A stretch of 46,274 nucleotides of DNA from a virus: IMG/VR virus record IMGVR_UViG_3300010430_000093, positions 1 through 46,274 of that record. One strand, written 5' to 3'. A model generated the notes under the pieces. That model had not been told where the DNA came from. It was given only the letters and a program-made list of their open reading frames with translations, and made no database searches. Below are positions 7,272 through 32,732 of the stretch, one piece after another; within the stretch, counting starts at the first letter, position 1, and every line of letters begins with the position of its first letter. The translations under genes were made by a program, and so were the position numbers.

Positions 7272-7305
7272 GCTTATTTTTAACTCTAACAATATTTTCC
7301 AATAG

Positions 7306-7354
7306 ACCTAAACTAAAAATAGTACTTGACAACTACTATAAAGTATGTTATAAT
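7306..7354 (+). promoter_or_regulatory. Rightward perfect consensus promoter with upstream box
   Basis: TTGACA at 7326, 17-nt spacer, TATAAT at 7349: a perfect sigma70 consensus. The 16-mer ACCTAAACTAAAAATA at 7306-7321 begins exactly 20 nt before the -35, as it also does at the promoters at 17137 and 20737. It may be an UP element or a binding site for a phage regulator. Confidence 0.8.
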
Positions 7355-7637
7355 ATTAGTATAATTTAGGAAGATCTTGTCTTTATAATTTAAACTAGAA
7401 AAATTTATTCGCTTAGCGACTGTATTAAATAAATTTTGGAGGGGCCCCTCGGGAGGATCTGAAATTTCTTTATATGCATCAAGCTAAGCAGATTATAAAA
7501 TTTAATAATAAAGAAGAAAAATTTTTTTAATTTATAGTACTGAAAAACTTCACAGTGTATTCTCACACGTGTTATAATAAACATTTGCCCGCTTGCCGCC
7601 GAAGGCGGCTATTTGGGCAAACAACTAGAGGAGACTT
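7355..7637 (+). promoter_or_regulatory. Gene-free leader with palindromes and a second promoter
   Basis: About 280 nt between the promoter and the first rightward gene. It holds the palindrome GAGGGGCCCCTC (7439-7450), a possible second promoter (TTCACA at 7549, 18-nt spacer, TATAAT at 7573) and a two-tier hairpin at 7584-7621 just before the ribosome site AGGAGA. No ORF with a good start is visible. Confidence 0.5.
7584..7621 (+). repeat. Two-tier hairpin, GCCGCC-GAA-GGCGGC type, copy 1
   Basis: Outer stem TTTGCCC/GGGCAAA, inner stem GCCGCC/GGCGGC with a GAA loop. The same inner hairpin recurs at 8624-8638 (inside a gene) and 9545-9559. Here it ends a few nt before the ribosome site of the gene at 7638, so it could control translation. 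Confidence 0.65.
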
Positions 7638-10390: not shown

Positions 10391-10419
10391 ATTATAACAC
10401 ATCGCTCCGGTTTTGTCAA
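10391..10419 (-). promoter_or_regulatory. Leftward perfect consensus promoter inside repeat DNA
   Basis: Minus strand TTGACA, 17-nt spacer, TATAAT. No leftward gene follows before 10047; the transcript would be ~130 nt of palindromes. Its -35 is half of the 26-bp operator-like palindrome at 10415-10440. Confidence 0.65.
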
Positions 10420-10440
10420 TAGTGGAATATACGTATTGAC
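10415..10440. repeat. GTCAATA...TATTGAC palindrome, copy 1
   Basis: 26 bp with arms GTCAATA and TATTGAC; the same total length as copies at 12588-12613 and 14592-14617. Overlaps a -35 box, as a repressor operator would. Confidence 0.6.
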
Positions 10441-10454
10441 ACGCGGGGCGGGAT

Positions 10455-10560
10455 CGGACACCCTCGGGGTGGGTGGGTGGGCCGGATACCCTCGTTAGAA
10501 TGAGTCTAAAGGTATTATGTTAAGTCGGACACCCTCGCGGTGCGAGGGTGTCCGGCTCCG
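10455..10560. repeat. GGACACCCTCG repeat cluster 1
   Basis: Direct copies CGGACACCCTCG (10455) and CCGGATACCCTCG (10482), then a 12-bp hairpin at 10526-10554 (CGGACACCCTCG, loop CGGTG, CGAGGGTGTCCG) and CCGGCTCCGCCGG. A hairpin CAAGC...GCTTG around a TTTTT/AAAAA stem follows (10569-10597), close in design to one at 13365-13398. Confidence 0.7.
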
Positions 10561-10651
10561 CCGGGCTTGTCAAGCGTTTTTTGCAAATAAAAAGCTTGCA
10601 ATCGGCCTGGAGCTGTGCTAGGACTCCGAGCCTAAATCGCAAGCACAGAAA

Positions 10652-10679
10652 AGCCCCGATTGCAAGGGCAATCGGGGCT
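10652..10679 (-). terminator. Leftward terminator of 10734-12453 cluster
   Basis: 12-bp perfect stem AGCCCCGATTGC, 4-nt loop, then TTTT on the minus strand. Confidence 0.8.
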
Positions 10680-10733
10680 AGTGTTAGACGTTTTTTAATT
10701 GGGGCTAACTAGCCAATTTTTTCGAGCCGAAGT

Positions 10734-11141
10734 TTATTCGGCTTGTGTTTCCTCGACTTCCGTTTCCTCAACGCTGTCGGCAAGTTTCGCCGCAGCCTGA
10801 ACTGTCGTGCGCAGAAACAGCAGGCAATTCTTTGTTGCCTTCTCAAGACCAGACAAGGACGTATCCGCATCCACGCTTAACGCATCGGCAATTTGTCCGA
10901 CAATCGTTTCCTTCGTTTCTGCCTTCTTGTTGTCTTTGGTCTTGTATTCCTTTTTCACATACAGACCCTCGCGAACCAATTTCGCACGTATGCTCTTAAC
11001 ACCTTTTCCGAGTTCATCCGACAACGCTTGCAATTGTTCCTCGCGATGTTCCTCGGAATCTTCCGGCTTGTAAACTTCGTGCAACCGAGAAACCATTTCC
11101 TCGGAATAGTTCGCCTGTGTTACCTTTTTCGTTTCTGTCAT
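10734..11141 (-). CDS. Probable DNA-binding protein, RAKLxREGxY family, 135 aa
   Basis: Third member of the family: NYSEEMVSRLHEVYKPEDSE, then LSDELGKGVKSIRAKLVREGLYVKK (about 42-66) and SGLEKATKNCLLFL. It has a longer acidic tail (SVEETEVEETQAE). AGAGGGTAAGAAAATG is its start context. Last gene of a leftward cluster with the exonuclease and HAD genes; the base composition is clearly richer in GC than the virion genes. Function unproven; DNA binding inferred from the probable helix-turn-helix. Confidence 0.75.
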   Translation of the reverse strand: MTETKKVTQANYSEEMVSRLHEVYKPEDSEEHREEQLQALSDELGKGVKSIRAKLVREGLYVKKEYKTKDNKKAETKETIVGQIADALSVDADTSLSGLEKATKNCLLFLRTTVQAAAKLADSVEETEVEETQAE

Positions 11142-11181
11142 TTTCTTACCCTCTAGAGTTTCGCGGAACCCGCCGCGCCGG

Positions 11182-11910
11182 TCAATCTAAAAGTGTGCCC
11201 CGGATTTTTTGCGCGTGTCGCCACGGCATGTGTTGAACGTCGTTATACGGAATAGGCTTGCGCCGCGCTAACAGTCGCAGCAAAATTTCTACTTCGATTT
11301 GTGCGTCTGCTAGTGCCGTGTGGCTTTCAACAAAATCGGGATTGCCAGTAAGGAACGCATAAGTTTTTTCAGCAGTTGTACGCACGTTATTCGCATCTGT
11401 GATAAACCCTTTTTCGCTTCCGTGCTTGTACGCGAAATCGTGGTATAGCTGCGAATTCAAAAGCGTTGAAGTTGAAAAGAGATACAAGTCCAGCAGCGTT
11501 AAGCGTGAAAGATTTATATTTTTCTCGGTAAGCATACGATGAGTTTTATTTAATGCGCCTAAGTCAAAACTGATGTTATACGCGCAAAAAACGTCAACGT
11601 CATACGTCAGTATATCCTCGCGCATCTGTTGAAGTATGTCGCGCCATTTGACCAGTCGAAAAGTGTGGTCTGCGATATTCGGAATATACAAGCTAAAAAT
11701 CTTTCCGCCAAACATCGCGCGCCAATCTTTATTAAATAACGCGCCTAGCATCAAACGAGGATTGGTTAGTATTTCGCTAACCAAAAAAGTACGTTCGCAA
11801 AAAATCTTACCTTTGCGATTTGTTATAACGTACGCAAAATCGAAAACGATTGCCTTTGATCCTAAGCCGGTCGTTTCCGTGTCGCAAACAAAAAACCTTT
11901 TTTCTTTCAT
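11182..11910 (-). CDS. DnaQ-like 3'-5' exonuclease (DEDDh)
   Basis: 242 aa. Exo I is VCDTETTGLG with D10 and E12; Exo II is AYNISFDLGAL with D116; Exo III is HTALADAQIE with H197 and D202, so the full DEDDh set is present. Family members remove nucleotides from 3' ends of DNA or RNA with two metal ions. A longer frame begins at a TTG (11958), but the ATG at 11910 overlaps the stop of a 26-aa gene as ATGA and is chosen. It may proofread for a separate polymerase or degrade host nucleic acid; no polymerase is in the window. Confidence 0.88.
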   Translation of the reverse strand: MKEKRFFVCDTETTGLGSKAIVFDFAYVITNRKGKIFCERTFLVSEILTNPRLMLGALFNKDWRAMFGGKIFSLYIPNIADHTFRLVKWRDILQQMREDILTYDVDVFCAYNISFDLGALNKTHRMLTEKNINLSRLTLLDLYLFSTSTLLNSQLYHDFAYKHGSEKGFITDANNVRTTAEKTYAFLTGNPDFVESHTALADAQIEVEILLRLLARRKPIPYNDVQHMPWRHAQKIRGTLLD

Positions 11911-11987
11911 GCTGTCAACGCTCCCAAAATGATACAAAGAATAATCAAGAATAAACAAAAGATTTTTTCTGTCGTGTCGTGTCTCAT
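11907..11987 (-). CDS. Tiny membrane peptide, 26 aa
   Basis: MRHDTTEKIF then CLFLIILCIILGALTA: a charged head and one membrane span. It links the HAD gene (stop 11989) and the exonuclease (ATGA overlap), which supports translation. The same plan (charged head, single span ending in xTA*) is seen in the 28-aa peptide at 13942-14028. Confidence 0.5.
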   Translation of the reverse strand: MRHDTTEKIFCLFLIILCIILGALTA

Positions 11988-11988
11988 A

Positions 11989-12453
11989 TCAAGCACCCTG
12001 TTGCGATGGAATATAGAAACATTTTGTAAACATGCTGCGCAATGCGTCGATGTTTTTCGGATTGTCTTCCCACAAGTAACGCGGCAAATTTTGAAACTGT
12101 CGCAGATTAAAAAATCTTTGCAATTGGCGACGTTTTAATACTGCGTCGTTTTGCATATTGCCAACAGGTCGCATTAGCAAAACATTAGGCTCGCCAAGCC
12201 TATCGTAAATAAATCTTTGGTCGTGCGCAGTCCATTGTCGCGCGGTGCAAACGATAACAAACGTGTAAGGGTCGATACATGCGAATTGATAATGCGAGGA
12301 ATGCGGTAGGATTTTGTCGAGTGCGATTTTATCCGGTGTGCGGTTTTTTATCCAGTAGTCTAAATCGATGGATCCGTCTGACAAATTGCGGTAGCGATGC
12401 GAGCTATCTACAAGCACCCCGTCTAAATCGTAAATGTTCATCTGTTTAAACAA
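11989..12453 (-). CDS. HAD-superfamily phosphatase-like protein, 154 aa
   Basis: Motif I YDLDGVLVDSS (D9, D11), motif II VIVCTAR (T70), motif III Lys near 107 and motif IV LWEDNPKN (E129, D130) give a complete HAD set. The small cap-less size and CTAR sequence resemble the 3'-phosphatase domain of phage polynucleotide kinase and related nucleotide phosphatases. The first codon is probably TTG at 12453 (AGAGGA 8 nt before it); ATG at 12441 is the alternative. It leads a cluster with an exonuclease, so a nucleic-acid end-processing role is a reasonable guess. Confidence 0.8.
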   Translation of the reverse strand: MFKQMNIYDLDGVLVDSSHRYRNLSDGSIDLDYWIKNRTPDKIALDKILPHSSHYQFACIDPYTFVIVCTARQWTAHDQRFIYDRLGEPNVLLMRPVGNMQNDAVLKRRQLQRFFNLRQFQNLPRYLWEDNPKNIDALRSMFTKCFYIPSQQGA

Positions 12454-12511
12454 TCGGTAAATCCTCTAAAAATTCGGCGTAAATAAAAAAAGAGTACAGG
12501 AAATTTAGACC

Positions 12512-12529
12512 CTTGTCTAGCTAGACAAG
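12512..12529. repeat. 18-bp perfect palindrome in HAD leader
   Basis: Half-arm CTTGTCTAG; lies about 60 nt upstream of the HAD start codon, so it is either an operator or a leader hairpin. Confidence 0.5.
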
Positions 12530-12587
12530 AGCGAAAAACTGTGCTAGGCAATTTCGCCGATTTGACTAGCACGTGGGCCAGGGTTTT

Positions 12588-12613
12588 GTCAATAGGTAGT
12601 TATACCTATTGAC
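12588..12613. repeat. GTCAATAGGTA palindrome, copy 2
   Basis: Perfect 11-bp arms GTCAATAGGTA/TACCTATTGAC with a 4-nt centre. Each arm contains a TTGAC, that is, a -35-like element on both strands. Confidence 0.65.
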
Positions 12614-12628
12614 GCGCCCGGCTGCGCC

Positions 12629-12655
12629 GGGCACCCTCGCACCGCGAGGGTGTCC
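12629..12655. repeat. GGACACCCTCG hairpin of leftward cassette
   Basis: GGGCACCCTCGC, 3-nt loop, GCGAGGGTGTCC; near-perfect 12-bp stem overlapping a CCCGGC/GCCGGG stem at 12617-12631. Confidence 0.65.
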
Positions 12656-12656
12656 G

Positions 12657-12681
12657 AATGCGAATGATAATCATTCGCATT
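12657..12681. promoter_or_regulatory. Fur-box-like palindrome A
   Basis: 25-bp perfect palindrome, half-arm AATGCGAATGAT around one base. Its centre AATGATAATCATT equals the middle 13 bases of the classical 19-bp Fur box; 15 of 19 positions match overall. It overlaps the -10 of the leftward promoter at 12679-12707, a normal repressor position. Confidence 0.6.
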
Positions 12682-12707
12682 AAAGAATCCGGATAATCTC
12701 TTGACAA
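12679..12707 (-). promoter_or_regulatory. Leftward promoter, shares -35 with a rightward promoter
   Basis: Minus strand TTGTCA, 17-nt spacer, TTTAAT. Its -35 (12702-12707) overlaps the rightward -35 (12701-12706) by five bases within CTTGACAA. Confidence 0.6.
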
Positions 12708-12729
12708 TGCTTGCGCGTTGTGGTAAAAT
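12701..12729 (+). promoter_or_regulatory. Rightward promoter of hairpin cassette
   Basis: TTGACA, 17-nt spacer, TAAAAT, followed by TGGCGCGGCC. Start expected near 12736. Confidence 0.75.
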
Positions 12730-12737
12730 TGGCGCGG

Positions 12738-12762
12738 CCAAATGAGAACGATTCTCATTTGG
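12738..12762. promoter_or_regulatory. Fur-box-like palindrome B
   Basis: Perfect 11-bp arms (CCAAATGAGAA) with a 3-nt centre. AATGAGAA..ATTCTCATT differs at one defined position from the Fur consensus AATGANAATNATTNTCATT. It covers about +2 to +27 of the rightward promoter. Confidence 0.6.
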
Positions 12763-12788
12763 ACACCCTCGCAGGTGCGAGGGTGTCC
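12761..12788. repeat. GGACACCCTCG hairpin of rightward cassette
   Basis: Perfect 12-bp stem GGACACCCTCGC with AGGT loop; shares two bases with the Fur-like palindrome. Confidence 0.7.
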
Positions 12789-12795
12789 GGTTTGC

Positions 12796-12818
12796 AAGTG
12801 CTTGTCAAGCACTTTTTT
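12796..12818 (+). terminator. Terminator of rightward cassette
   Basis: AAGTGCTT-GTC-AAGCACTT followed by T to 12818. Confidence 0.75.
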
Positions 12819-12823
12819 CACAC

Positions 12824-12852
12824 AAAAAAATCCCGCCTATTGGCGGGATTTT
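12824..12852 (-). terminator. Leftward terminator after structured RNA region
   Basis: AAAATCCCGCC/GGCGGGATTTT stem with a 4-nt loop; seven T on the minus strand, only four on the plus, so mainly leftward. Confidence 0.8.
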
Positions 12853-13205
12853 AATCTCCTTTTACACGTTAGAGTCGCGAGACCTCAGTTTTTCGACAGG
12901 TGGCCTATTGTCGTTGCCGTGCTTGCCCGGCAATCGCTCCGAGTCCGAAGACCGTCGCTTTATTCGGTTTTCCTGACCGACGGAAACCGCCCCGCATCAA
13001 GAACCCCTAATAGGGTGAGTGTCCAGTCTTATCGGATGGGCTTAGCATTTTCACCATCTTACAAACCTTTCACTCGCTATACCGTAGCAGTCATCCCCTA
13101 AGCGGGCCTTACTTTTGGTCAGCAGGCTAGAGCATTCTTCCAACGGTGCTTTTCCGCGTGTTACGGGGCTTTTAGCTAGGCCCCATGCTCTAATCCATGT
13201 AACGT
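12853..13205 (-). ncRNA. Possible structured RNA, ~350 nt, family not recognised
   Basis: A gene-free stretch of higher GC ending at a strong leftward terminator. Leftward reading shows nested stems: TAGAGCAT/ATGCTCTA enclosing GGGGC/GCCCC; GCTA/TAGC; CCCTA-TT-AGGG; CGGTTT/AAACCG overlapped by CCGTCG/CGACGG (a pseudoknot geometry); TTGCCG/CGGCAA. Frames crossing it (12742-13101 plus, 13051-13371 minus) lack ribosome sites and cover repeats, so I reject them as genes. It has none of the signatures I know for tRNA, tmRNA, RNase P or group I/II introns. A weak TACTAT -10 lies at 13206-13211. GOLLD/ROOL-like phage RNAs are a comparison to try. Confidence 0.45.
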
Positions 13206-13247
13206 ATAGTACGCTCTTGAGAAAAATACACCATAAGGGGAAATACG

Positions 13248-13352
13248 TATTGACACCAGGTTCTAAGCCGGGCACCCTCGCACCTGCGAGGGTCTCCAAA
13301 TGCGAATGAGACGTATTCTCATTCGGACACCCTCGCGGGGCGAGGGTGTCCG
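13248..13352. repeat. GGACACCCTCG / Fur-like repeat cluster 3
   Basis: In order: half-site TATTGAC (13248); hairpin GGGCACCCTCGC-ACCT-GCGAGGGTCTCC (13269-13296); Fur-like palindrome CGAATGAGA...TCTCATTCG (13303-13325); perfect hairpin CGGACACCCTCG-CGGGG-CGAGGGTGTCCG (13324-13352). The leftward reading repeats the cassette order seen at 14592-14731, but no TATAAT-type promoter is seen. Confidence 0.65.
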
Positions 13353-13405
13353 GTCCGGAGGCCCGTGTCAAGTCTTTTTTGCAAATAAAAAACTTGACAA
13401 ATGAA

Positions 13406-13431
13406 AAGGCCCGTGGTATACCACGGGCCTT
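13406..13431 (-). terminator. Leftward terminator of 13465-14513 cluster
   Basis: 26-bp perfect palindrome, half-arm AAGGCCCGTGGTA, followed by TTTT on the minus strand. Confidence 0.75.
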
Positions 13432-13464
13432 CCCTTCTCCCTGCCGACTATTCCCTCCTAGTGG

Positions 13465-13700
13465 CTAAGAATTAGATTGTACTGATCGAAACGCAGAACC
13501 AAAAAATCCGAGTGTTGCACCTAACTGAAAATCAGTTAAGTTTACTCCGGCTAATTCTCGAAGTGTATCAGTGACGTAGGGAAACCATGCACCAACAATC
13601 CAACCAGAAACGCCACCTAAAACGCGCTAACTATCATCGCAAGAAATACAAAAATTAATCCAACGATAGCAACACCACAACCTGCTGCCAATTTATCCAT
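13465..13700 (-). pseudogene. Small membrane protein gene split by a -1 frameshift
   Basis: Frame 1 (13617-13700) encodes MDKLAAGCGVAIVGLIFVFL plus AMIVSAF and stops at TAG. One base back at GCGTTTTAG, the next frame runs on to 13465 with LGGVSGWIVGAWFPYVTD ... FQLGATLGFFGSAFRS, which has no start codon of its own but looks like a real two-span phage membrane family. Either ribosomes slip -1 on the T4 run, or a T has been lost by mutation or sequencing. The ATG overlaps the stop of the upstream gene as TAATG. Confidence 0.5.
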
Positions 13701-13945
13701 TACCTTTTCCTTTTAATTTTTGAAACTTTGTTACCACACACAGGACACTTTTTCCAAGTCAAATCCTTTTCCAGTCCCTCCCAATTACAGAGATAAACTT
13801 TGCAGCGGTATTGTTGCTGATTAGCGTAATCCGCAAAATCTTCTTTTGCCTTACGTGCCCAGTTATCCCAGTCGATTGATTTAGGCTTAAGCCAACGTGT
13901 ATCGGTTTCCAATAACCCGATATTTAAACCCATGTTTTTAATCAT
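13700..13945 (-). CDS. Hypothetical zinc-knuckle protein, 81 aa
   Basis: MIKNMGLNIGLLETDTRW start; the C-terminal part has CKVYLCNW and CPVCGNKVSKIKRKR, a possible four-Cys zinc site with a basic tail. The frame is open to 13984, but the ATG at 13945 overlaps the stop of the 28-aa peptide gene (ATGA), so it is chosen. Function unknown. Confidence 0.6.
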   Translation of the reverse strand: MIKNMGLNIGLLETDTRWLKPKSIDWDNWARKAKEDFADYANQQQYRCKVYLCNWEGLEKDLTWKKCPVCGNKVSKIKRKR

Positions 13946-14028
13946 GCTGTAAACACCGCAAGGGCAATCAATAAAAATAAACAAATGATTGCAAGCGCAT
14001 CTAAAAAATCTCTGCTTCTAGTCCTCAT
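13942..14028 (-). CDS. Tiny membrane peptide, 28 aa
   Basis: MRTRSRDFLDALA followed by IICLFLLIALAVFTA: a basic head and one span, much like the 26-aa peptide at 11907-11987. It is coupled at both ends (11-nt overlap upstream, ATGA downstream). Confidence 0.5.
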   Translation of the reverse strand: MRTRSRDFLDALAIICLFLLIALAVFTA

Positions 14029-14206
14029 CTGGAAACACCTCCAAAATATCAAGAACCCTAATCCATGAACCCCAACCAACTCGGCCTTTCTTTATACCAA
14101 CTCTTAAAAATTTTTCAGAGGGAGACAATTCAAAAATTTGACATTTTTCAATTGTGCCGTCTATATTAGCAAGAATTTTTGAACCTATTTCAATTTCACA
14201 AGACAT
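14018..14206 (-). CDS. Hypothetical beta-rich protein, 62 aa
   Basis: Strand-rich small protein (IEIGSKILANIDGTIEKC, KFLRVGIKKGRVGWGSWIRV), probably an SH3-like or KOW-like barrel by appearance. Start lies inside the 3' end of the SprT-like gene (11-nt overlap). Unknown function. Confidence 0.6.
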   Translation of the reverse strand: MSCEIEIGSKILANIDGTIEKCQIFELSPSEKFLRVGIKKGRVGWGSWIRVLDILEVFPDED

Positions 14207-14513
14207 AAGTTTTATCCATGGTTACACCGAAAGAAAATTTGTTATATTGTTTTTTAAACTCTTTACCGTGATCGTCGTAATTAGTAAAGCCTAAAAATTC
14301 GTCGATATATTGATGTATTATTTCATGATAAATCAATTCAGTTACAGCAATATACCCTTTTGTATCTGCTAGATTAAAATGCATTGCAATACCATCATAT
14401 TTTGCATGATCGTCTCGCATACGGGAAAAGAAGAATTTAGGTTCAGTTAGTACGCCTCCAAAATTACGGGTGTTTAACTTCTTATAAATTCTTTTTACCG
14501 TTTCTAGTTTCAA
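14196..14513 (-). CDS. SprT-like zinc metalloprotease, minimal, 105 aa
   Basis: The zinc site HEIIH is at residues 63-67 (H63, E64, H67) and a probable third ligand H82 is in DDHGKEF, giving HExxH-N14-H as in SprT/Spartan-type proteases. The N-terminus VKRIYKKLNTRNFGGVL is typical of the short SprT core; the C-terminal zinc ribbon of longer family members is missing. It is cytoplasmic. SprT relatives cut DNA-bound or crosslinked proteins; in a phage it might clear host proteins from DNA, which is inference. Own promoter at 14538-14566. Confidence 0.75.
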   Translation of the reverse strand: MKLETVKRIYKKLNTRNFGGVLTEPKFFFSRMRDDHAKYDGIAMHFNLADTKGYIAVTELIYHEIIHQYIDEFLGFTNYDDHGKEFKKQYNKFSFGVTMDKTYVL

Positions 14514-14537
14514 TCTATTTCTCCAAAGTGATAACGA

Positions 14538-14566
14538 AATATATCATAAATTTACATGTGTGTCTA
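14538..14566 (-). promoter_or_regulatory. Leftward promoter for SprT-like gene
   Basis: Minus strand TAGACA, 17-nt spacer, TATATT; the ribosome site TTGGAGAAATAG lies about 15 nt further. Confidence 0.55.
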
Positions 14567-14591
14567 GCCCCTTACATAGAACCAGGGGTAT

Positions 14592-14617
14592 GTCAATAGG
14601 TAGATATACCTATTGAC
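14592..14617. repeat. GTCAATAGGTA palindrome, copy 3
   Basis: Same 11-bp arms and 26-bp length as copy 2 (12588-12613), with a GATA centre instead of GTTA. Confidence 0.65.
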
Positions 14618-14631
14618 TGGTCCGGCTACGC

Positions 14632-14661
14632 CGGACACCCTCGCACCTGCGAGGGTGTCCG
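14632..14661. repeat. GGACACCCTCG hairpin, leftward cassette at 14.7 kb
   Basis: Perfect stem CGGACACCCTCGC/GCGAGGGTGTCCG, loop ACCT on the plus strand (AGGT on the transcribed minus strand, identical to the 12761-12788 hairpin). Confidence 0.7.
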
Positions 14662-14688
14662 AATGAGAATGAGACGCATTCGCATTCG
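14660..14688. promoter_or_regulatory. Fur-box-like palindrome D
   Basis: Arms CGAATGAGAATG and CATTCGCATTCG pair at 11 of 12 positions around 5 nt. Lies about +8 to +37 of the leftward promoter at 14703-14731. A looser Fur match than palindromes A, B and E. Confidence 0.5.
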
Positions 14689-14702
14689 GGGGTCCGGAGA
14701 GG

Positions 14703-15327: not shown

Positions 15328-15387
15328 ATGCGAATATTCGCATATGCGAATATTAGTATATTCGTATATTCGTATATTCGTATATTC
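15328..15387. repeat. AT-rich palindrome and 8-bp tandem repeats
   Basis: Perfect 16-bp palindrome at 15328-15343 (half-arm ATGCGAAT, as in Fur-like palindrome A), then ATATGCGAATATT, then four perfect tandem copies of GTATATTC (15356-15387). Rest of 15250-15580 shows no gene. Confidence 0.6.
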
Positions 15388-15584
15388 ATATATGCTAATC
15401 TCCGACTGAACCCCTAATAGTATCACATGAAACCATTTTATGGCATAAGGGAAAGTACCTATATTCAGAACGCTCATTCTGTGCTAGTGATCAGTTCTTA
15501 CAGTCATTTCTGTATGGACAGAAATGACGGCCAGAAGTTGTGCAGTGCACCATGAGAATCGTAATACGAATGATTCGCATTCCG

Positions 15585-15620: not shown

Positions 15621-15626
15621 GGGCGC

Positions 15627-15653
15627 GGATGAGAATGATTATCATTCGCATCC
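15627..15653. promoter_or_regulatory. Fur-box-like palindrome E
   Basis: Arms GGATGAGAATGAT and ATCATTCGCATCC around one base, one mismatch. The core GAGAATGATTATCATT is a strong Fur-box match (15 of 19 to the classical box). Confidence 0.6.
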
Positions 15654-16399: not shown

Positions 16400-16654
16400 T
16401 TATTCTCCATCGTTACAGTAGATGATATTAACCATGTCGCTAACGGCATGGTTGAGCGACATGATGTGGTAGTCGCGCTCGTATTGGTTTTCGATTTCCT
16501 GTTCCTCCGTGTAAACGGTTGCGACCACGCGGAAATAGTACCCGCCGGTCTTGTCGTAATTCGATTGATAGCAATCGAGTTTGCAGAGTCGCTCAAGTTT
16601 AGAAGTCTCAATGCGATCAGTAGGCTGAGCAAAATTCGGTAAATCAGTAGGCAT
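16400..16654 (-). CDS. Hypothetical protein, 84 aa
   Basis: MPTDLPNFAQPTDRIETS, then GGYYFRVVATVYTEEQEIEN and NHAVSDMVNIIYCN. AAGGGGATTACT before the ATG. First gene of the leftward 15728-16654 operon. Function unknown. Confidence 0.65.
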   Translation of the reverse strand: MPTDLPNFAQPTDRIETSKLERLCKLDCYQSNYDKTGGYYFRVVATVYTEEQEIENQYERDYHIMSLNHAVSDMVNIIYCNDGE

Positions 16655-16701: not shown

Positions 16702-16729
16702 ATTATACAGTGAGTCAACAGAATAACAA
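16702..16729 (-). promoter_or_regulatory. Leftward promoter of 15728-16654 operon
   Basis: Minus strand TTGTTA, 16-nt spacer, TATAAT. Confidence 0.55.
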
Positions 16730-16789: not shown

Positions 16790-17009
16790 TTGGCATGACC
16801 GTTGCGTGTGCCAACGCAAGAATCATGCCAACCGGGCCTCGCGCGGACACCCTCGTTAGACCGATTGGCTATATGCAATCACCCCATATTGGCACGCTTA
16901 TTGCTATGCAAGAATCGTGCCAAGAAAATAGTTGGCACGCTTATTGCTATGCAAGAATCGTGCCAAGAAAAAAGTTGGCACGCTAATTGCTATGCAAGAA
17001 TCGTGCCAA
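16790..17009. repeat. Array of inverted sigma54-type (-24/-12) motifs
   Basis: Three near-identical 35-bp units at 16889-16923, 16932-16966 and 16975-17009, with a 43-bp period. Each reads TTGGCACG-N4-TTGC from both strands, the two TTGC boxes facing each other across TAT. A divergent fourth unit (16790-16832) has TTGGCATG-N4-TTGC in both directions around a longer centre. All eight motifs keep the GG-N10-GC spacing of sigma54 promoters, and the six in the three units fit TGGCACG-N4-TTGCW. No gene lies inside. A GGACACCCTCG copy is at 16844. Confidence 0.8.
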
Positions 17010-17023
17010 GGGGAGGGCGGTTA

Positions 17024-17038
17024 TTAGACTAAGTCTAA
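17024..17038. repeat. 15-bp perfect palindrome
   Basis: TTAGACT-A-AGTCTAA, just after the sigma54-type array; operator-like. Between it and 17117 I see nothing further. Confidence 0.45.
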
Positions 17039-17116
17039 GCCCCTATATTCTGACTATCCCACACGTAAACCATCACATAAAATCAGAATTTGCAATTAGG
17101 TGCTAAAATATAATAT

Positions 17117-17165
17117 ACCTAAACTAAAAATACTTCTTGACACGCTGCTAACACTATGTTATACT
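17117..17165 (+). promoter_or_regulatory. Rightward promoter of packaging/virion genes, with box
   Basis: Box ACCTAAACTAAAAATA at 17117-17132, TTGACA at 17137, 17-nt spacer, TATACT at 17160. The same box, spacing and CTTCTTGACACG context occurs at 20717. First promoter for the structural block. Confidence 0.8.
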
Positions 17166-17188
17166 ACTCTTATAATTAGGAGAAGTAA

Positions 17189-17398
17189 ATGAAATTTACA
17201 GTACAAGATAAAAATAACCAGATTCTCTATACGGGAACAAAGCAAGATTGTATGCATTTTATAAAGCGCAAAAAAATTAATAGGCAGGAGATTACTATCC
17301 AAAAATTTGATGATACTCCTACCCCACACGTTACTATTCCTGTTACTTCCGACACTCCGCCCCCTACTCCCGGATTCTTTAAAAGGTTCTTCAACTAA
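17189..17398 (+). CDS. Hypothetical protein, 69 aa
   Basis: AGGAGAAGTAAATG start. MKFTVQDKNNQILYTGTKQD followed by CMHFIKRKKINRQEITI: a small beta-rich domain that recalls short phage proteins with a translated-repeat fold; the C-terminus (PTPHVTIPVTSDTPPPTPG) is Pro-rich. First gene of the virion transcript, overlapping the next by one base. Unknown. Confidence 0.65.
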   Translation: MKFTVQDKNNQILYTGTKQDCMHFIKRKKINRQEITIQKFDDTPTPHVTIPVTSDTPPPTPGFFKRFFN

Positions 17399-17871
17399 TG
17401 TCAGATTACAATTTGCAACCCTACTCAGAGGATGCAATGCCTGAATCTATCAGCCCTGAAGGAGCAAGTATCGCAAATACATATTTGGCCAATGCTTGTT
17501 CTTTAAATGAAACCTCACGTAGTCTAGACTTACCCACGCATGAAATCGCTGCGACCCTCCAACAACCACTAGTAAAAACTTATGTTAACTCTATTCTTCG
17601 AGAGAATGGTTATCGACATATGGTAAAAATAGCTGAAAAACTGGACGAGTTAGTTGAATTAAAATGGGCTGAATTAGAAGAAGCAGAAATTGGTTCTAAT
17701 AAAGACATCGCTGATTTACTAGCGTTACACCATAAAATGCGTATGGATATGTCTAAATTATTACAAGCTGATGTTGAAAAACCTGGTCCCGGACGTGTGG
17801 CAAATACACAAGTTAATGTATATGGTGAAGGTAATTACGGAAAACTTATGGAGAAGTTAGTTAATGGCTGA
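17398..17871 (+). CDS. terS: Terminase small subunit (probable)
   Basis: 157 aa. The N-terminal part (EGASIANTYLANACSLNETSR through QQPLVKTYVNSIL) is a helix-turn-helix of the kind that recognises packaging DNA, followed by a helical oligomerisation region (IAEKLDELVELKWAELEEAE) and a tail that would touch the large subunit. Size and place, three genes before the large subunit, fit the family. Call rests on layout and fold impression, not on a unique motif. Confidence 0.7.
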   Translation: MSDYNLQPYSEDAMPESISPEGASIANTYLANACSLNETSRSLDLPTHEIAATLQQPLVKTYVNSILRENGYRHMVKIAEKLDELVELKWAELEEAEIGSNKDIADLLALHHKMRMDMSKLLQADVEKPGPGRVANTQVNVYGEGNYGKLMEKLVNG

Positions 17872-18476: not shown

Positions 18477-18759
18477 TGCATACGTAAGAGCAAACAAAAG
18501 AAAATTAATTTGCGAACAAGAAATTCCACTAGAACGAGCAATTGATTTTTTAAAAGAGACACCTCATGGTTTGATAATTAAAGGTGAAAAAGAATACACA
18601 CTAGAAGAATTAAAAGATGTTAAGAATATCAGATCCCTCCCTGGAATTAGAGAAAGTGACCTTGTTACCAGTGGAACAGAGGTTCATGAAGATCCCTATA
18701 GAGAACTATTTGAATCTGTTGGGAGTGACACCGAACCGAGTTCAGAATGCGATAATTAA
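18469..18759 (+). CDS. Hypothetical protein, 96 aa, overlapping terL
   Basis: Starts inside the end of the previous gene. ERAIDFLKETPHGLIIKGEK and YTLEELKDVKNIRSLPG suggest a small winged or helical fold; the tail is acidic (GSDTEPSSECDN). Its last 143 nt also encode the start of the terminase large subunit in another frame if that gene begins at 18617. If terL instead begins at 18686, the overlap is 74 nt. Confidence 0.6.
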   Translation: MYNAYVRANKRKLICEQEIPLERAIDFLKETPHGLIIKGEKEYTLEELKDVKNIRSLPGIRESDLVTSGTEVHEDPYRELFESVGSDTEPSSECDN

Positions 18760-19966
18760 TGGCATAAATTCGCCTAATTATCGCTTCATTACTACTTGTG
18801 TTTCTCGACGAGTTGGTAAAACTTTTATAGCAAATATCATTTTACAAGTCGTAGCTCTTATGCCAGGCTCTACCGTTTTAATTATTGCGCCTGACTACTC
18901 GTTAGCATCGATTTCGTGGGATTTGCAACACGAATTATTAAAAAAATTCGATATTGAAACCGTACGAGATAATGCTAAAGATCGTATCTTAGAGCTGTCT
19001 AACGGTTCTATGATTCGTGTTGCTTCTATATCGCGCGTCGACTCGGCCGTTGGTCGTTCTTATGATCTTATCATCTTTGACGAAGCGGCCCTAAACGACG
19101 GTGGAGGTACTGCTTTCAATATAGCGCTGTTACCTACTCTAGATAAATTACAATCAAAATGTTTATTTATTTCAACACCACGTGGTGATAACTGGTTCAG
19201 AGAATTCTTTGAACGCGGATTCAGTACAGATGTTGAATTAAATGAATGGTTATCCATACACGCTGATTACCATGAAAATCCTAGAGCTGATGCTAAGACT
19301 GTAGCGCAAGCTAAAAAGACCATGTCTCACGCTGAATTTGAACAGGAATTCATGGCTAACTTTGTTACCTTTGAAGGTCAAGTCTGGGCATTGGATCAAG
19401 ATTGTATTCGCGATCTTACTCCATTAATAGTTGAATTTGAAGGTTCATTACATCGTCTAGAAATCATCAGTGGACTTGATCTAGGATTCCGAGATCAAAC
19501 TGCTATGGTAGTACTAGTTGTACATACCGATTCAGATGGTAATAACATATACTACTTAATAGATGAATATGTAGCGACTGTGCGCACTACTGCTCGACAT
19601 GCTGAAGAGATTCAATCACGCGTTTTGCGTTGGGATCTTGACTATATATTCTGCGATTCTGCTGCAGCTCAGACTCGATATGATCTAGCGTCTACTTATG
19701 ATATTTCAACTGTAGCTGCAATCAAGAGTTTACAAGACGGAATCGGCGCCGTTGGTGCCGTAGTGGATAATAATAGACTGATTGTACATGATGAATGTGT
19801 GGAATCAATTTATGCTTTGCGCAACTATAAATGGAAGGGTAAAGTTGAAGAGGGAGTTTGGAACATAGAAACTCAAAAACCTGAACACAACAGAGCATCG
19901 CACTGTGCAGATGCTATTAGATATGCGATTTATACTTATGAACGCTCGATGGGAGGAATTACATGA
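18617..19966 (+). CDS. terL: Terminase large subunit
   Basis: 449 aa. The ATPase has Walker A CVSRRVGKTFIAN (residues about 57-69), Walker B LIIFDEAAL near 150 and a coupling TPRGDNWF near 190; the nuclease half has the acidic residues in EIISGLDLGFRDQTA near 285, YIFCDSAAA near 347 and HCADAIRYAIY near the end. It pumps DNA into proheads and cuts it. The start at 18617 lacks a clear ribosome site; ATG 18686 (MKIPIENY) has CAGAGG 4-5 nt before it, so the true start may be there. Confidence 0.93.
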   Translation: MLRISDPSLELEKVTLLPVEQRFMKIPIENYLNLLGVTPNRVQNAIINGINSPNYRFITTCVSRRVGKTFIANIILQVVALMPGSTVLIIAPDYSLASISWDLQHELLKKFDIETVRDNAKDRILELSNGSMIRVASISRVDSAVGRSYDLIIFDEAALNDGGGTAFNIALLPTLDKLQSKCLFISTPRGDNWFREFFERGFSTDVELNEWLSIHADYHENPRADAKTVAQAKKTMSHAEFEQEFMANFVTFEGQVWALDQDCIRDLTPLIVEFEGSLHRLEIISGLDLGFRDQTAMVVLVVHTDSDGNNIYYLIDEYVATVRTTARHAEEIQSRVLRWDLDYIFCDSAAAQTRYDLASTYDISTVAAIKSLQDGIGAVGAVVDNNRLIVHDECVESIYALRNYKWKGKVEEGVWNIETQKPEHNRASHCADAIRYAIYTYERSMGGIT

Positions 19967-20702: not shown

Positions 20703-20716
20703 TAAAATTTCTGTAG

Positions 20717-20765
20717 ACCTAAACTAAAAATACTTCTTGACACGATGCCTAAAATATGTCAGAAT
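20717..20765 (+). promoter_or_regulatory. Rightward promoter with conserved upstream box
   Basis: Box ACCTAAACTAAAAATA at 20717-20732, TTGACA at 20737, 17-nt spacer, CAGAAT at 20760. The -10 is weak compared with the two sister promoters. Confidence 0.65.
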
Positions 20766-20811
20766 GATTATAATATAAAGAAAAAATCAAAATACAACAT
20801 TTATAACTGTT

Positions 20812-21782: not shown

Positions 21783-22993
21783 ATTATTTAAGAAGATTGC
21801 AATACGCGTGGAAACACCGTGGGCAACCCGCAATTCAAAGAGTAGAGGGTAATTCTCGCTCTAGTGAAAGAAGTAGATTCTTTTTTGAACGAAGTTACGA
21901 CCATATAGAAGTAGTACGTCGTGGTGTAGATATGATCGTTGATTCAGCTATTGAAGTTGATGTAAACATCACTGAAAGTTTACCCACTAAACCTGTACAT
22001 GAAGGGGGTAGACAAAGAAGAAAAACTTTGTCTACTATATTAAATTTTCGTCCTAATAATAATGAAGATGTAAGTTCATTTAGACGTGAATTAGTAATGG
22101 ATTTTATTTTAACAGGTAATTGTTATCAATATTGGGATGGTATTAATTTATATTATTTACCTGCTAGATTAATGACAATTGTTACACATAGTAAAAATAA
22201 GGTAAGTCATTACGAGTTCGAAAAGGACATTAAGTTTTATCCACATGAGATTATCCATACTAAGGATAACAACGCTGATTCTGAGTATGAAGGTAGATCC
22301 AGATTATTCTGTACTAAGGGTACTATACTTATATTAAGAAGTATGTTAGATTTTCAAGAGAACTTTTTTGATAATGGAGCCATTCCAGGTTTGATTATTC
22401 AAACACCTAATATTCTTAGTGCAAAGATTAAAGATAAAATGCTACAAGTATGGCGTCAAAGATATAATCCTAGAGATGGTGGGCGTAGTCCTATGATCCT
22501 AGATGGAGATTTAAAAGTTAATCCACTTAGTACTACTAAGATTAATGAATTAGATTTTGAAGCCTCTGTAGAATCACACGAAACAAAGATTTTAAAAGCT
22601 TTGGGTGTACCCCCAGTACTTTTAAATTCTGGCAATAATGCAAATTTAAGACCAAATATACAGCTATTTTACGAAATGACAGTTCTACCGCTTGTTTCTA
22701 AACTTATTAGTTCCTATGAGCGATTTTTTGCTTATGATATGGAACCAGAGGTTGCTAAAGTGAGAGCTTTAAGACCTGAGTTAAGAGATGCGGCACAGTA
22801 TTTTACAGGATTAGTTAACGCGGGGATTATGACCGCGGATGAAGCGCGTATCGAGTTAAGACTCGAACCTATGAAAGATGGAGAATCTGATAAACTCAGA
22901 ATTCCAGCTAACGTTGCAGGTAGCGCGACAGACCCATCTCAAGGGGGAGCACCTGAAAAAGAGGATGATGACCCCGCGAATGAAGACGATTAA
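21779..22993 (+). CDS. Portal protein, HK97 type
   Basis: 404 aa, usual for the HK97-like portal family. Recognisable pieces: VVRRGVDMIVDSAIEVDV, LVMDFILTGNCYQYWDG, YPHEIIHTKDNN, FDNGAIPGLIIQTP, ETKILKALGVPPVLL and LRPELRDAAQYFTGLVNAGI-type C-terminal helix with TADEARIELRLEP. It forms the dodecameric ring for DNA entry. The acidic tail (EKEDDDPANEDD) is typical. ATGA overlap with PAS gene. Confidence 0.9.
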   Translation: MNYLRRLQYAWKHRGQPAIQRVEGNSRSSERSRFFFERSYDHIEVVRRGVDMIVDSAIEVDVNITESLPTKPVHEGGRQRRKTLSTILNFRPNNNEDVSSFRRELVMDFILTGNCYQYWDGINLYYLPARLMTIVTHSKNKVSHYEFEKDIKFYPHEIIHTKDNNADSEYEGRSRLFCTKGTILILRSMLDFQENFFDNGAIPGLIIQTPNILSAKIKDKMLQVWRQRYNPRDGGRSPMILDGDLKVNPLSTTKINELDFEASVESHETKILKALGVPPVLLNSGNNANLRPNIQLFYEMTVLPLVSKLISSYERFFAYDMEPEVAKVRALRPELRDAAQYFTGLVNAGIMTADEARIELRLEPMKDGESDKLRIPANVAGSATDPSQGGAPEKEDDDPANEDD

Positions 22994-28925: not shown

Positions 28926-30857
28926 GTGAGAATTATACCTCGTTCTGCAACTAGTACAGTTTTACTTAAAGGTGGTGAGCCACCTACTAATAATCCTCCA
29001 GTTTGGGACTCTCAACCTTTAATTTATTTTTCAGAGGGTATATCATCAGATTATAATATGAATGATATCACTAGTGATCCTGATTCTGACCCAATTACTT
29101 TTTCAATGAATACAGGAACAGTAGCTTTACCTACAGGTGTAACTTGGACTGCATTTACGGGTATATTAGCATATAATGGAATAGCCGGACCAGATGTTAC
29201 TTCTGGACATATTATAACTTTAGACGATGGAGAAGATACTACGGATAGCAACGCTTTTAATATAACTATCGCACCAGAAGGATCAGCATTCCCTAGGGTA
29301 GGTTCTTTACGCCATAATAGTCGTGTATATGGGGAAGATAACTCAGATGGGGAATATGATCGTGAACATATAGCAGCACACGATGGAGTTATGCTTGGAA
29401 TGTTTTATAATGGACCTTGGGATAGTAGTAGTGCAGCTGACTATCCGGGAGATCCAGGGGGTACTAATGGTTGGTTATCAAGAGATGCAATCGTTGATGA
29501 CTTATTAACTAGAAATCCTAATCTTATTATTTATGATTATGTTAATGTTATGGAATCGGGTCTCACAGGTGCTAGTCAAATTAAGGCAGATTTTTTAGAT
29601 TCTATGACTGGACCTAATGGATCTGATGGTTGGGTTTATAAACCTATAGCTTTTACTACTCAAACTTTTACAGATGCTAATAAATATTCTACGTGGCCAA
29701 ATACTTATAATACAAATATAACAGAATATGCTGTAGGCCCTGCACCAGACTATTTTTCTTATCCTGAATGGTTTGCAACATTTGTTAAAGAAAAACATAT
29801 GGATCCAATTATTTCTAACCCAGGTAAAGTACATATTTATTTTGATGTAGTTTTAAATCGTCCGAAAAAAGCAGGTACAGATATGGATGGCAATGAGGAT
29901 GAAGATGATTGTAATAATCACTGGGATCCTTTAGATTCAGAACATGTTGCACATAATGGTGGACAATCTGTTGAATTATCAAGACAGTGGCGTCAAGGTC
30001 AGGCAGATTGTATAAATAAAGTAAAATCATACCAATCTGATTTACTAATAACAGTTGAAACACCCGGTAATAATTTCGGGGGTTGGCCTAGAGGTTATAA
30101 TAGTGTTGATCCTGAGGATGCTCCAGCAATGATGACAGAATATGTTGATCTTGTACATGGTGGATTCATGACAGGTCAAACTGGCGATCAAGGTCTTTGG
30201 CCAGAAGGAAGTTGGCCAATATCAGGTATTGCTAATAATGGTGAAAAAGCACTTAATCAAGATGCTACCGCTGGTTTTAGAGCAGCATTAAATGCTTACA
30301 CATATATTATGGATAATACAATGGACCCTAAACATGTATTTAATGATTGGGGATGTGTATTAACCCCATATTTAGATCCAAGGCACCCTAGTCCAGAGGG
30401 TAATACTATAGAAACTAGTGAACCTACTGGGGCAGGTACTGCTTGGAATTGTTTTCGTGTTGGTTCGTGTATGACATTATTAGATAATGGTCTTATTAGT
30501 ATTGTTGGAAAACCTGGAGGAAATGGTAATAGTAGTCCATGGTTTGATGAATTTGGTTTTCATAATACTGGTACAACGGGTTTATCACCTAAATGGTTAG
30601 GTCAAGCAGTCGATGGTGTACAACGTACAGCGAGACAAGGTTCTAATATTTTTATTAGAGAATTTGATAACGGTTGGGTAGTTGTAAATTCAGATTTAGA
30701 TGGATCAGCAACTTCTATAGATATATCTGTATTTGGTTCTCCGGGTTCAGTAAAGCGTATTAATGGAGTTCAAGATCCTTCCCACAATGATGGTAGTACT
30801 GTAACAGAAGATTTTGATTTAGACCCTATTGATGGAATTTGGTTGGAGAAAGTTTAA
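28926..30857 (+). CDS. Ig-like plus glycoside-hydrolase-like virion protein 1
   Basis: 643 aa, GTG start with GAAGGA. Residues ~20-117 are a cadherin/Ig-like domain (NPPVWDSQPLIYFSEG; DPDSDPITFSMNTG; LPTGVTWTAFTGILAYNG). The rest looks like a TIM-barrel: DDLLTRNPNLIIYDYVNV, WRQGQADCINKVKS, LITVETPGNNFGGW, and an end with FIREFDNGWVVVNSD, which recalls hypothetical glycoside hydrolase family 15 (GHL15). Probably a surface or tail protein acting on host glycans; activity unproven. Tandem with a paralogue. Confidence 0.65.
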   Translation: MRIIPRSATSTVLLKGGEPPTNNPPVWDSQPLIYFSEGISSDYNMNDITSDPDSDPITFSMNTGTVALPTGVTWTAFTGILAYNGIAGPDVTSGHIITLDDGEDTTDSNAFNITIAPEGSAFPRVGSLRHNSRVYGEDNSDGEYDREHIAAHDGVMLGMFYNGPWDSSSAADYPGDPGGTNGWLSRDAIVDDLLTRNPNLIIYDYVNVMESGLTGASQIKADFLDSMTGPNGSDGWVYKPIAFTTQTFTDANKYSTWPNTYNTNITEYAVGPAPDYFSYPEWFATFVKEKHMDPIISNPGKVHIYFDVVLNRPKKAGTDMDGNEDEDDCNNHWDPLDSEHVAHNGGQSVELSRQWRQGQADCINKVKSYQSDLLITVETPGNNFGGWPRGYNSVDPEDAPAMMTEYVDLVHGGFMTGQTGDQGLWPEGSWPISGIANNGEKALNQDATAGFRAALNAYTYIMDNTMDPKHVFNDWGCVLTPYLDPRHPSPEGNTIETSEPTGAGTAWNCFRVGSCMTLLDNGLISIVGKPGGNGNSSPWFDEFGFHNTGTTGLSPKWLGQAVDGVQRTARQGSNIFIREFDNGWVVVNSDLDGSATSIDISVFGSPGSVKRINGVQDPSHNDGSTVTEDFDLDPIDGIWLEKV

Positions 30858-32732
30858 ATGGTAGGTATAAATTATTCTCCTGTAGGGGGTATGAGTTTAG
30901 CTAAAGCCAGTGATTCAGCCAATAATCCTCCAGTTTGGGACTCTCAACCTTTAATTGATTTTAATGTTGGTACATCTAAAAGTTACGATATGGATGACAT
31001 TACTAGTGATCCTGATTCTGATCCAATTACTTTTTCAATGAATACGGGAACAGTATCCTTACCTACAGGTGTAACTTGGACCCCAAGCACGGGTATATTA
31101 GCATATAACGGTGTAGCTGCGGCTGACCTTACTACAGGACATATTATAACTTTGGATGACGGAACAGATACAACGGATAGCAATGCTTTTAATATAACTA
31201 TTTCAGAGGGTTTAGATTATCCCAGATTTGGTTCAGTACGAATAGGTGAACGGGTATATGCAGAAGACAATACTGAAGGTGAAACTGAAAGAGCAGCAAT
31301 AGCTTTAGGTGATGTTGTCTGGTTGGGTTTATTTAGTGATGGACCTTGGGATAATTCACCCAATGCTGCACATCTTTCTCGTTCAGATATTATTGATGAT
31401 TTAAAAACTAGAAATCCTGATTTAATTATTTTCGATTACACTGATGTTGGAGAAACCAGTCTTACTAGTGATACAGGTGCTTATGCTCTAACTCAGACTG
31501 GGCCTGGAGGTACTGATTGGTTTACTTATGCAGATGCCGATAATTATCCTGAGGGACGTGTTTCTACATATCCCAATAGTTACAACGTTAATATAACTAC
31601 CTACGTTACACCTGATGGTAGTGGAAAAAGATACCCAGAAGTATACGGGGATTATAAACAAGGTTTTCATATTGATCCGGTAGCTGCAGGAGTAGGTGTT
31701 AATGGTGTAAATATTTATAATGATGTTATGGATATTCGTCCAAGAACTAATAGTACAGATATTAATGGTGATGGTACAAAAGATAATGCTAGGAGTTATT
31801 ATGATCCTGAAAATGAAGATCATGTAGCACAACAAGGTGGTTTATCTGTAACTATCTCTCAAGCTTGGAGACAAGGTCAAGCTAATTTTGTACAACAATT
31901 AATAGACGATAATAGTGGTATTTTAATAGCAGCTAATTTAACTACTTGGAGTCGTGAATATGTTTCTACAAATGAAGCTGATGCCCCTGCTATGCTTAGT
32001 GAATATGTTAATTTAGTACACGGGGGACATTGTGAGGGGCAATCATTACCTGAAACTGGATATCCGTTTAGTGGAGTATATGCAGATGGTAACTCAAAAC
32101 CCGGGGATCAATTTGGTAAGTGGCAAAGAGCACATAATTCATATACTTATTGTTTAGATAATTGTATTACATTAGAAGGTAATGATGCACCATTTGTTTT
32201 AAATGAGTGGCATGTTGAATTATCTCCATCTTCTGGTTCTTTACCTGATTCACCTGAAGGTAGACAAATATATACAACTTATCCTACAGGAGGAGCATTT
32301 AATCTAGTACGTTGGGGATTATGTTCAACATTAATGGAAAATGGTTATCATGCAGTAGCTACTGTTAATCCAGGATCTTCTAGCGGTAATTATTCTAGTA
32401 CTCCGCAATTTGATGAATATGGAACAGCTAATACTGGCACTACAGGATTAAGTAAGGGTTGGCTAGGTCAACCTATTGATCCACCGCAACGTTCACCGTG
32501 GTATGGAGATATTTATAAAAGAGAATTTGATAATGGTTTAGTATTATTACATATTGAACATGATGATTCTACTTCCGATCATAATATAAATGTAACCGGG
32601 GAAGGGGGAATAGGAGCAGGAGTTTGGAAACGTATAGATGGTGTACAAGATGATACTTGGAATGATGGTAGTACTATAAATGCTGATTTTACAATTCCAC
32701 CAATTGACGGAATTATTTTGGAACGTATATAA
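30858..32732 (+). CDS. Ig-like plus glycoside-hydrolase-like virion protein 2
   Basis: 624 aa, ATG directly after the stop of its paralogue. Same Ig-like start (NPPVWDSQPLIDFNVG; DPDSDPITFSMNTG) and barrel (DDLKTRNPDLIIFDYTDV; WRQGQANFVQQLID; YKREFDNGLVLLHIE). The Ig part is nearly the same in DNA as in protein 1, whereas the barrel parts have diverged. It could have another sugar specificity. Confidence 0.65.
   Translation: MVGINYSPVGGMSLAKASDSANNPPVWDSQPLIDFNVGTSKSYDMDDITSDPDSDPITFSMNTGTVSLPTGVTWTPSTGILAYNGVAAADLTTGHIITLDDGTDTTDSNAFNITISEGLDYPRFGSVRIGERVYAEDNTEGETERAAIALGDVVWLGLFSDGPWDNSPNAAHLSRSDIIDDLKTRNPDLIIFDYTDVGETSLTSDTGAYALTQTGPGGTDWFTYADADNYPEGRVSTYPNSYNVNITTYVTPDGSGKRYPEVYGDYKQGFHIDPVAAGVGVNGVNIYNDVMDIRPRTNSTDINGDGTKDNARSYYDPENEDHVAQQGGLSVTISQAWRQGQANFVQQLIDDNSGILIAANLTTWSREYVSTNEADAPAMLSEYVNLVHGGHCEGQSLPETGYPFSGVYADGNSKPGDQFGKWQRAHNSYTYCLDNCITLEGNDAPFVLNEWHVELSPSSGSLPDSPEGRQIYTTYPTGGAFNLVRWGLCSTLMENGYHAVATVNPGSSSGNYSSTPQFDEYGTANTGTTGLSKGWLGQPIDPPQRSPWYGDIYKREFDNGLVLLHIEHDDSTSDHNINVTGEGGIGAGVWKRIDGVQDDTWNDGSTINADFTIPPIDGIILERI

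Follow-up and report, generated by a model that had tools for sequence, protein, structure and literature searches.

The DNA stretch analysed here, called the window (46,274 bases, a single IMG/VR virus record), contains a cluster of eight consensus-strength sigma54 sites, which separates a set of leftward genes from the terS/terL operon that runs rightward. This array may be a trap that holds the host sigma54-RNA polymerase in closed complexes, and titration would then be its use; we put the probability of this reading at roughly 0.4. The reading builds on observed properties, namely the identity, strength, clustering and recurrence of the motif, its place in the genome, and the absence of a phage sigma54 or activator.

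The eight TGGCAYG-N4-TTGC sites form three 35-bp palindromic units and one outlying unit, each with sites on both strands. Unit 1 (16889..16923) carries TTGGCACGCTTATTGC on the plus strand facing TTGGCACGATTCTTGC on the minus strand across a gap of 3 bp (matrix scores, see below, of 20.95 and 22.51 bits), unit 2 (16932..16966) is identical in sequence to unit 1, and unit 3 (16975..17009) has TTGGCACGCTAATTGC (+) facing TTGGCACGATTCTTGC (-) with scores of 20.15 and 22.51. In the outlying unit (16790..16831) TTGGCATGACCGTTGC (+) faces TTGGCATGATTCTTGC (-), both sites are of the TTGGCATG form, and the scores are 15.6 and 18.8. A first-pass annotation had described three 35-bp units repeating every 43 bp plus one further unit, and it was verified that the start-to-start distance is indeed 43 bp and that GG-N10-GC is kept in all eight sites. 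The annotation had also stated that every unit has TTGGCACG-N4-TTGC on both strands and -12 boxes that are 3 bp apart. This holds for the three main units, to which the statement has to be limited, because the outlying unit has the TTGGCATG form and a distance of 10 bp. The N4 bases of the arms neither pair nor covary, which shows that the motif is bound as DNA and does not form a hairpin in RNA. A hairpin or terminator was thus rejected, as N4 differs freely between the arms and no Rfam match was obtained. A fixed-geometry dimer palindrome was also rejected, because the arm gap ranges from 3 to 16 bp and varies even inside one array.

As had been suggested in the first-pass annotation, the window and shuffled versions of it were scanned with a sigma54 matrix, which was derived from sigma54 ChIP-seq sites of E. 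coli (42 sites; Table 1 of PMC4591121). Among all window positions, the first eight ranks were taken by exactly the eight array sites, with 15.6–22.5 bits. On the same matrix the E. coli sites have a median of 16.4 and a maximum of 21.7 bits, and three array sites outscore every E. coli site. In the shuffled windows the score of the weakest array site (15.64) was reached 0.55 times on average, and the best score was 17.75, compared to 18.8–22.5 for the other seven array sites. A pattern search for TGGCANG-N4-TTGC with at most one mismatch yielded nine matches in the window, eight of them perfect and all of these in the array, while 100 shuffles gave a mean of 1.78 and a maximum of 5. The window array thus has the -24 GG and -12 GC boxes of a sigma54 promoter in the form TGGCAYG-N4-TTGCW and, as would be typical for a decoy, multiple high-affinity sites, i.e., eight that score at least as high as most E. 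coli sites. Among the 545 distinct viral 17-mers of all collected arrays, 72% reached or exceeded the E. coli median, and in 763 half-sites of virus arrays Y precedes TGG and W follows TTGC, which is the sigma54 consensus at positions that were not part of the search. Relatives that keep the 43-bp repeat and lose GG/GC had been named as evidence against sigma54, but the opposite was found: the half-site and N4 are kept, and period, orientation and gaps vary. Judged from the motif, host sigma54-RNA polymerase would very probably bind the array sites.

Arrays of sigma54 sites are not peculiar to this phage and occur in dozens of other uncultured lineages. Exact units with the 3-bp gap were present in six other virus contig stretches, several of which are terminase relatives, and relaxed pairs were found in at least 119 (face-to-face), at least 119 (back-to-back), and at least 120 (tandem) IMG/VR stretches. 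The face-to-face pattern with a box spacing of N5 had no match in IMG/VR, compared to at least 119 for N4; the N4 box spacing is required. About 660 bacterial genomes contained no relaxed face-to-face pair, two seed genomes aside, and a stricter face-to-face pair occurred three times in 257 Gb of bacterial genomes, on contigs that encode ordinary cellular genes (L025-L027). A nucleotide search of the array region against phage records gave no matches, and when a consensus unit or either of two other arrays served as the query, the matches were short and chance-like or there were none. Isolates that share phrog_1392 or TerL had no array and a single site at most; they comprised Acinetobacter phage AM24 (first half), the T5-like phage PSTCR5 (middle 50 kb), and Manatee Spring phages.

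The fetched loci comprise 157 arrays with 4–12 sites each, which belong to 85 DNA-similarity lineages and span at least three terL families (phrog_2, phrog_15, phrog_38). The distances between neighbouring sites peak at 18–22 bp (face-to-face), 20–25 bp (back-to-back), and 25–29 bp (tandem), and the alternating units are mostly 40–47 bp long. Face-to-face packing is thus only one of three arrangements, and the earlier suggestion that facing complexes block each other cannot be a general principle. An iteron that happens to look like sigma54 sites had also been proposed. This is unlikely, because as many as 85 DNA lineages have the same 11-base motif, while an iteron or operator array would be expected to have a motif private to its lineage, and because perfect NtrC enhancers lie alongside in some of them. 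Of seven long records, five have their perfect sites in one cluster, in one case with an extra site about 330 bp off, and in the other two, the genomes L020 and L153, they are scattered over 1–2 kb. As side observations, six separate sigma54-like clusters are distributed over 5.5 kb in L117 (179-5714), unlike the single cluster elsewhere, and four back-to-back sigma54-like pairs are found 1.3–2 kb apart on one contig in L186 (368-5378).

The first-pass annotation had proposed to look for the array at the same place in related phages, and the related contigs differed in their number of sites. Within the window's own family, L013 has one pair, L020 and L022 have three pairs that stand apart, each upstream of a different leftward gene, L014, L018, and L019 have unpaired sites that are mostly leftward, L010 has only one site, and L011 has none. 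This range from none to several sites indicates that the element turns over quickly, and it is apparently gained and lost in the manner of an accessory device. A conserved stretch directly 3′ of the array (GGGCGGTTATTAGAC..CTAAGCCCC..CCCACACGT, 17014..17072) is present at the same place in L013, L018, L019, L010, and L011. In 15 marine relatives the site cores and the outward rightward promoter are kept while the spacers drift.

In the window, the rightward operon starts with an ORF of 69 aa without family match (17189..17398, +), followed by the genes for the terminase small subunit (17398..17871, +; phrog_3802, E=3e-30) and large subunit (18617..19966, +; phrog_2, 48% identity to Demerecviridae Providencia phage PSTCR5). 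The first ORF of the leftward operon (16400..16654, -) is likewise without family match. The ATG at 17189 is preceded by an outward sigma70-type promoter with an extended TG, TTGACA-17-TATACT (17137..17165, +; 11/12 matches). A weaker outward promoter for the leftward genes, TTGTTA-16-TATAAT (16702..16729, -), has 10/12 matches and is uncertain, as shuffles yielded 2.0 such sites. A sigma70 promoter cassette with the conserved upstream sequence TAKACCTAAACTAAAAATA is present in three copies in the window (7303-7373, 17114-17184, 20714-20784), and in L010 and L011 cassettes of this kind are located in front of the rightward operon.

The same organization was found around the collected arrays. 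Where terL was present on the contig it pointed away from the array (79/79 and 81/81), usually at a distance of 0.4–2 kb, and other conserved neighbours are likewise directed away. A GP88/phrog_1392 gene was observed near arrays in 14 loci (e.g., L242 2703-3416) and pointed away in all of them. Outward sigma70 promoters beside the arrays numbered 67 versus 4.0 expected, typically 110–260 bp from the array edge, compared to 6 inward promoters versus 4.8 expected; these flank statistics are based on loci that had been selected for the motif, with genes called simply as the longest ORFs. The sites themselves showed no preferred direction relative to terL: when one array per lineage was counted, 81 pointed toward it and 102 away (10 versus 14 lineages, p=0.54). 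All-tandem arrays point toward or away from terL alike, and the window units hold sites in both orientations. A late promoter for terS/terL was therefore rejected, as the orientation of the sites is uncoupled from the genes. In 50 array-bearing records, many of which are fragments, neither Sigma54_activat nor Sigma54_DBD was found above the cut-off, and a phage-encoded sigma54 or activator was accordingly dismissed for these records.

In the proposed mechanism, the array would be a cluster of consensus-strength sites for the host sigma54 (RpoN)-RNA polymerase between the outward sigma70 promoters of two divergent operons. RpoN would bind in vivo, and the holoenzyme would stay in a closed complex as long as no activated enhancer-binding ATPase is available. 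Each face-to-face unit of 43–47 bp would act as a palindromic trap for one holoenzyme in either orientation, and at a spot upstream of both outward promoters the complexes would not be swept off by phage transcription. The copy number of the sites during infection would be high, so that on replicating phage genomes they would outnumber host sigma54 and the sigma54 regulon, with its nitrogen, envelope-stress, and motility genes, would be shut down. The number of sigma54 molecules in E. coli is of the order of one hundred, and thus all of them could be bound by a few dozen phage genomes, given eight sites on each.

Titration is favoured by the number of sites, their strength above that of host promoters, their free orientation and their single clustering, as well as by the missing activators and the location behind both outward promoters. 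It is preferred over promoter use because the flanking genes already have outward sigma70 promoters and because bacterial genomes contain hardly any such pairs. Several observations speak against titration. With a spacing of 18–28 bp neighbouring sites exclude each other, so that a holoenzyme trap would waste many of them; the NtrC- and IHF-like sites that accompany some arrays suggest promoters that fire; and the single pairs before separate leftward genes in L020 and L022 resemble local control. Furthermore, the single site of L010 and the lack of sites in L011 indicate that the trap would be dispensable. The wider view, that widespread phage DNA sponges of optimal sigma54 sites sequester host sigma54-RNA polymerase and in some lineages also NtrC, is tentative and stays below even odds; replicating phage DNA would then switch off a host regulon without any viral protein.

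A close rival of titration is a sigma54-dependent bidirectional promoter hub that is fired by host ATPases, namely NtrC under nitrogen limitation and perhaps PspF on membrane stress. The phage would thereby sense the physiological state of its host and add sigma54 transcription to one or both divergent operons. This is possible, if on the doubtful side. It agrees with the location of the arrays at the divergence point, with conserved flanking genes directed away, with face-to-face pairs that would serve both directions, and with the unpaired sites of the window's family, which mostly point into the leftward genes. It agrees also with the host-side partner sites. Using the NtrC consensus (PMC8743547, PMC4987338), perfect sites (TGCACCA-N3-TGGTGCA) were found next to the arrays of two lineages (L191; L092/L119/L141), sites with at most one mismatch numbered 10 versus about 1–1.7 expected, and the core motif was present in four lineages compared to 0 for spacing controls. 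IHF-type sites were enriched near arrays (23 versus 3.0 in shuffled flanks and 4–5 for scrambled controls) and are concentrated within 300 bp of the array. However, no NtrC-type site was found near the window's own array, and such sites are absent from the great majority of lineages. An upstream-side bias of the IHF sites was looked for as a mark of promoters, but they showed no preference for the upstream side of edge sites, and neither the NtrC nor the IHF sites had the polarity expected of a promoter. Moreover, site orientation per lineage is uncoupled from the genes, the sites are far more numerous than a promoter requires, other operons lack sites in most long records, and sigma70 promoters are present in the flanks.

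It is improbable that the array is an operator for a phage-encoded protein, such as a repressor, the terminase small subunit or a replication initiator, with a half-site that coincides with the sigma54 consensus by accident. Palindromic units in arrays, their orientation-free arrangement, and the vicinity of terS, a likely location for sites of packaging or control, would suit such an operator, but the motif is identical, including its degeneracy, in the 85 DNA lineages with their three or more terL families, the flanking base preferences are those of sigma54, NtrC and IHF sites co-occur, and an arm gap that differs inside one array is unlike a rigid dimer. Still less probable is a part of a replication origin, where host DnaA, IHF, and sigma54-RNA polymerase would mark or open the start site. 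In L010 (1168-1224) and L011 (1106-1165), tandem DnaA-box-like CTGTGGATAAC repeats with a period of 11–12 bp, five of them intact in L010 and partly decayed in L011, stand where the window has its array, and the IHF enrichment, a skew change at the divergence point and the occurrence of TTATCCACA near arrays (5 versus 0.5 in shuffles) also fit an origin. However, TTATCCACA was found near arrays in only 3/85 lineages, the skew tracks gene direction, and the single DnaA box of the window, at 22237, lies away from the array; we know of no role of sigma54 closed complexes in replication initiation. Chance or an ordinary repeat without function is practically negligible, because, short as the motif is and though unit duplication can enlarge arrays, it is contradicted by the N5, bacterial-genome and marine-relative controls.

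Sigma54 sites, decoys, and operator arrays are known as parts, and their combination is apparently new; in agreement with the first-pass annotation, the literature searched, in which subscription journals are thinly covered, contained no description of a phage array of sigma54 sites. The arrays resemble bacterial sigma54 (-24/-12) promoters in the TGGCAYG-N4-TTGCW motif, its strength and spacing, and in a few phage lineages also in NtrC enhancers. They differ from them by having 4–12 sites in mixed orientation, in most lineages without a recognised enhancer, and by site pairs, which are nearly never found in bacterial genomes. Phage operator arrays are known from the stoperators of mycobacteriophage L5 and from multiple CI operators, and these also have many copies of one binding site per phage genome, but they bind a phage repressor, whereas the motif described here belongs to a host sigma factor and occurs in many lineages. 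The datA locus is a host-factor titration site for DnaA. Synthetic decoy sites are a further precedent for titration (PMC7826281). The array shares with both the clustering of strong sites that could lower the level of a free host regulator; in contrast to them, its target would be sigma54-RNA polymerase and its carrier is a virus, and titration is proposed from the sequence. Other phages deal with the sigma54 system by proteins, i.e., a putative sigma54 factor in Pectobacterium phage Q19 (PMC7693777) and a sigma54-type regulator in phage phi1422 (PMC3391216), whereas the array is a DNA element without such a phage protein. The polymerase on which the nitrogen and stress genes of the host depend may be trapped or exploited by it, and a recurring phage DNA element aimed at sigma54 would tie infection to the control of nitrogen and envelope stress. 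The known cases in which phages take over host transcription mainly concern sigma70 and are brought about by proteins. To our knowledge, no regulon-level decoy consisting of viral DNA has been described before, so that titration would be the first case, and a promoter hub would represent the first phage family with sigma54-gated transcription.

Several further features of the window were observed. A PurZ-like adenylosuccinate synthetase is encoded at 1166-2317 (-; phrog_1211, E=7e-55). This enzyme family is that of phages that replace adenine by 2-aminoadenine, and if the window genome carries this base, the -24/-12 boxes encountered by sigma54 would be modified. Several families of GC-rich palindromes (GGACACCCTCG..., AATGCGAATGATAATCATTCGCATT, GTCAATAGGTANNTATACCTATTGAC), some of which are common to relatives, are located among the leftward genes (10405-14689 and 15626-15651). 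Two adjacent large ORFs (28926-32732) share an 84% identical stretch of 281 nt near their 5′-ends and apparently represent a duplicated structural gene. Lastly, a small ORF contains 4.5 copies of the tandem repeat ATGCGAATATTCGTAT (15328-15399).
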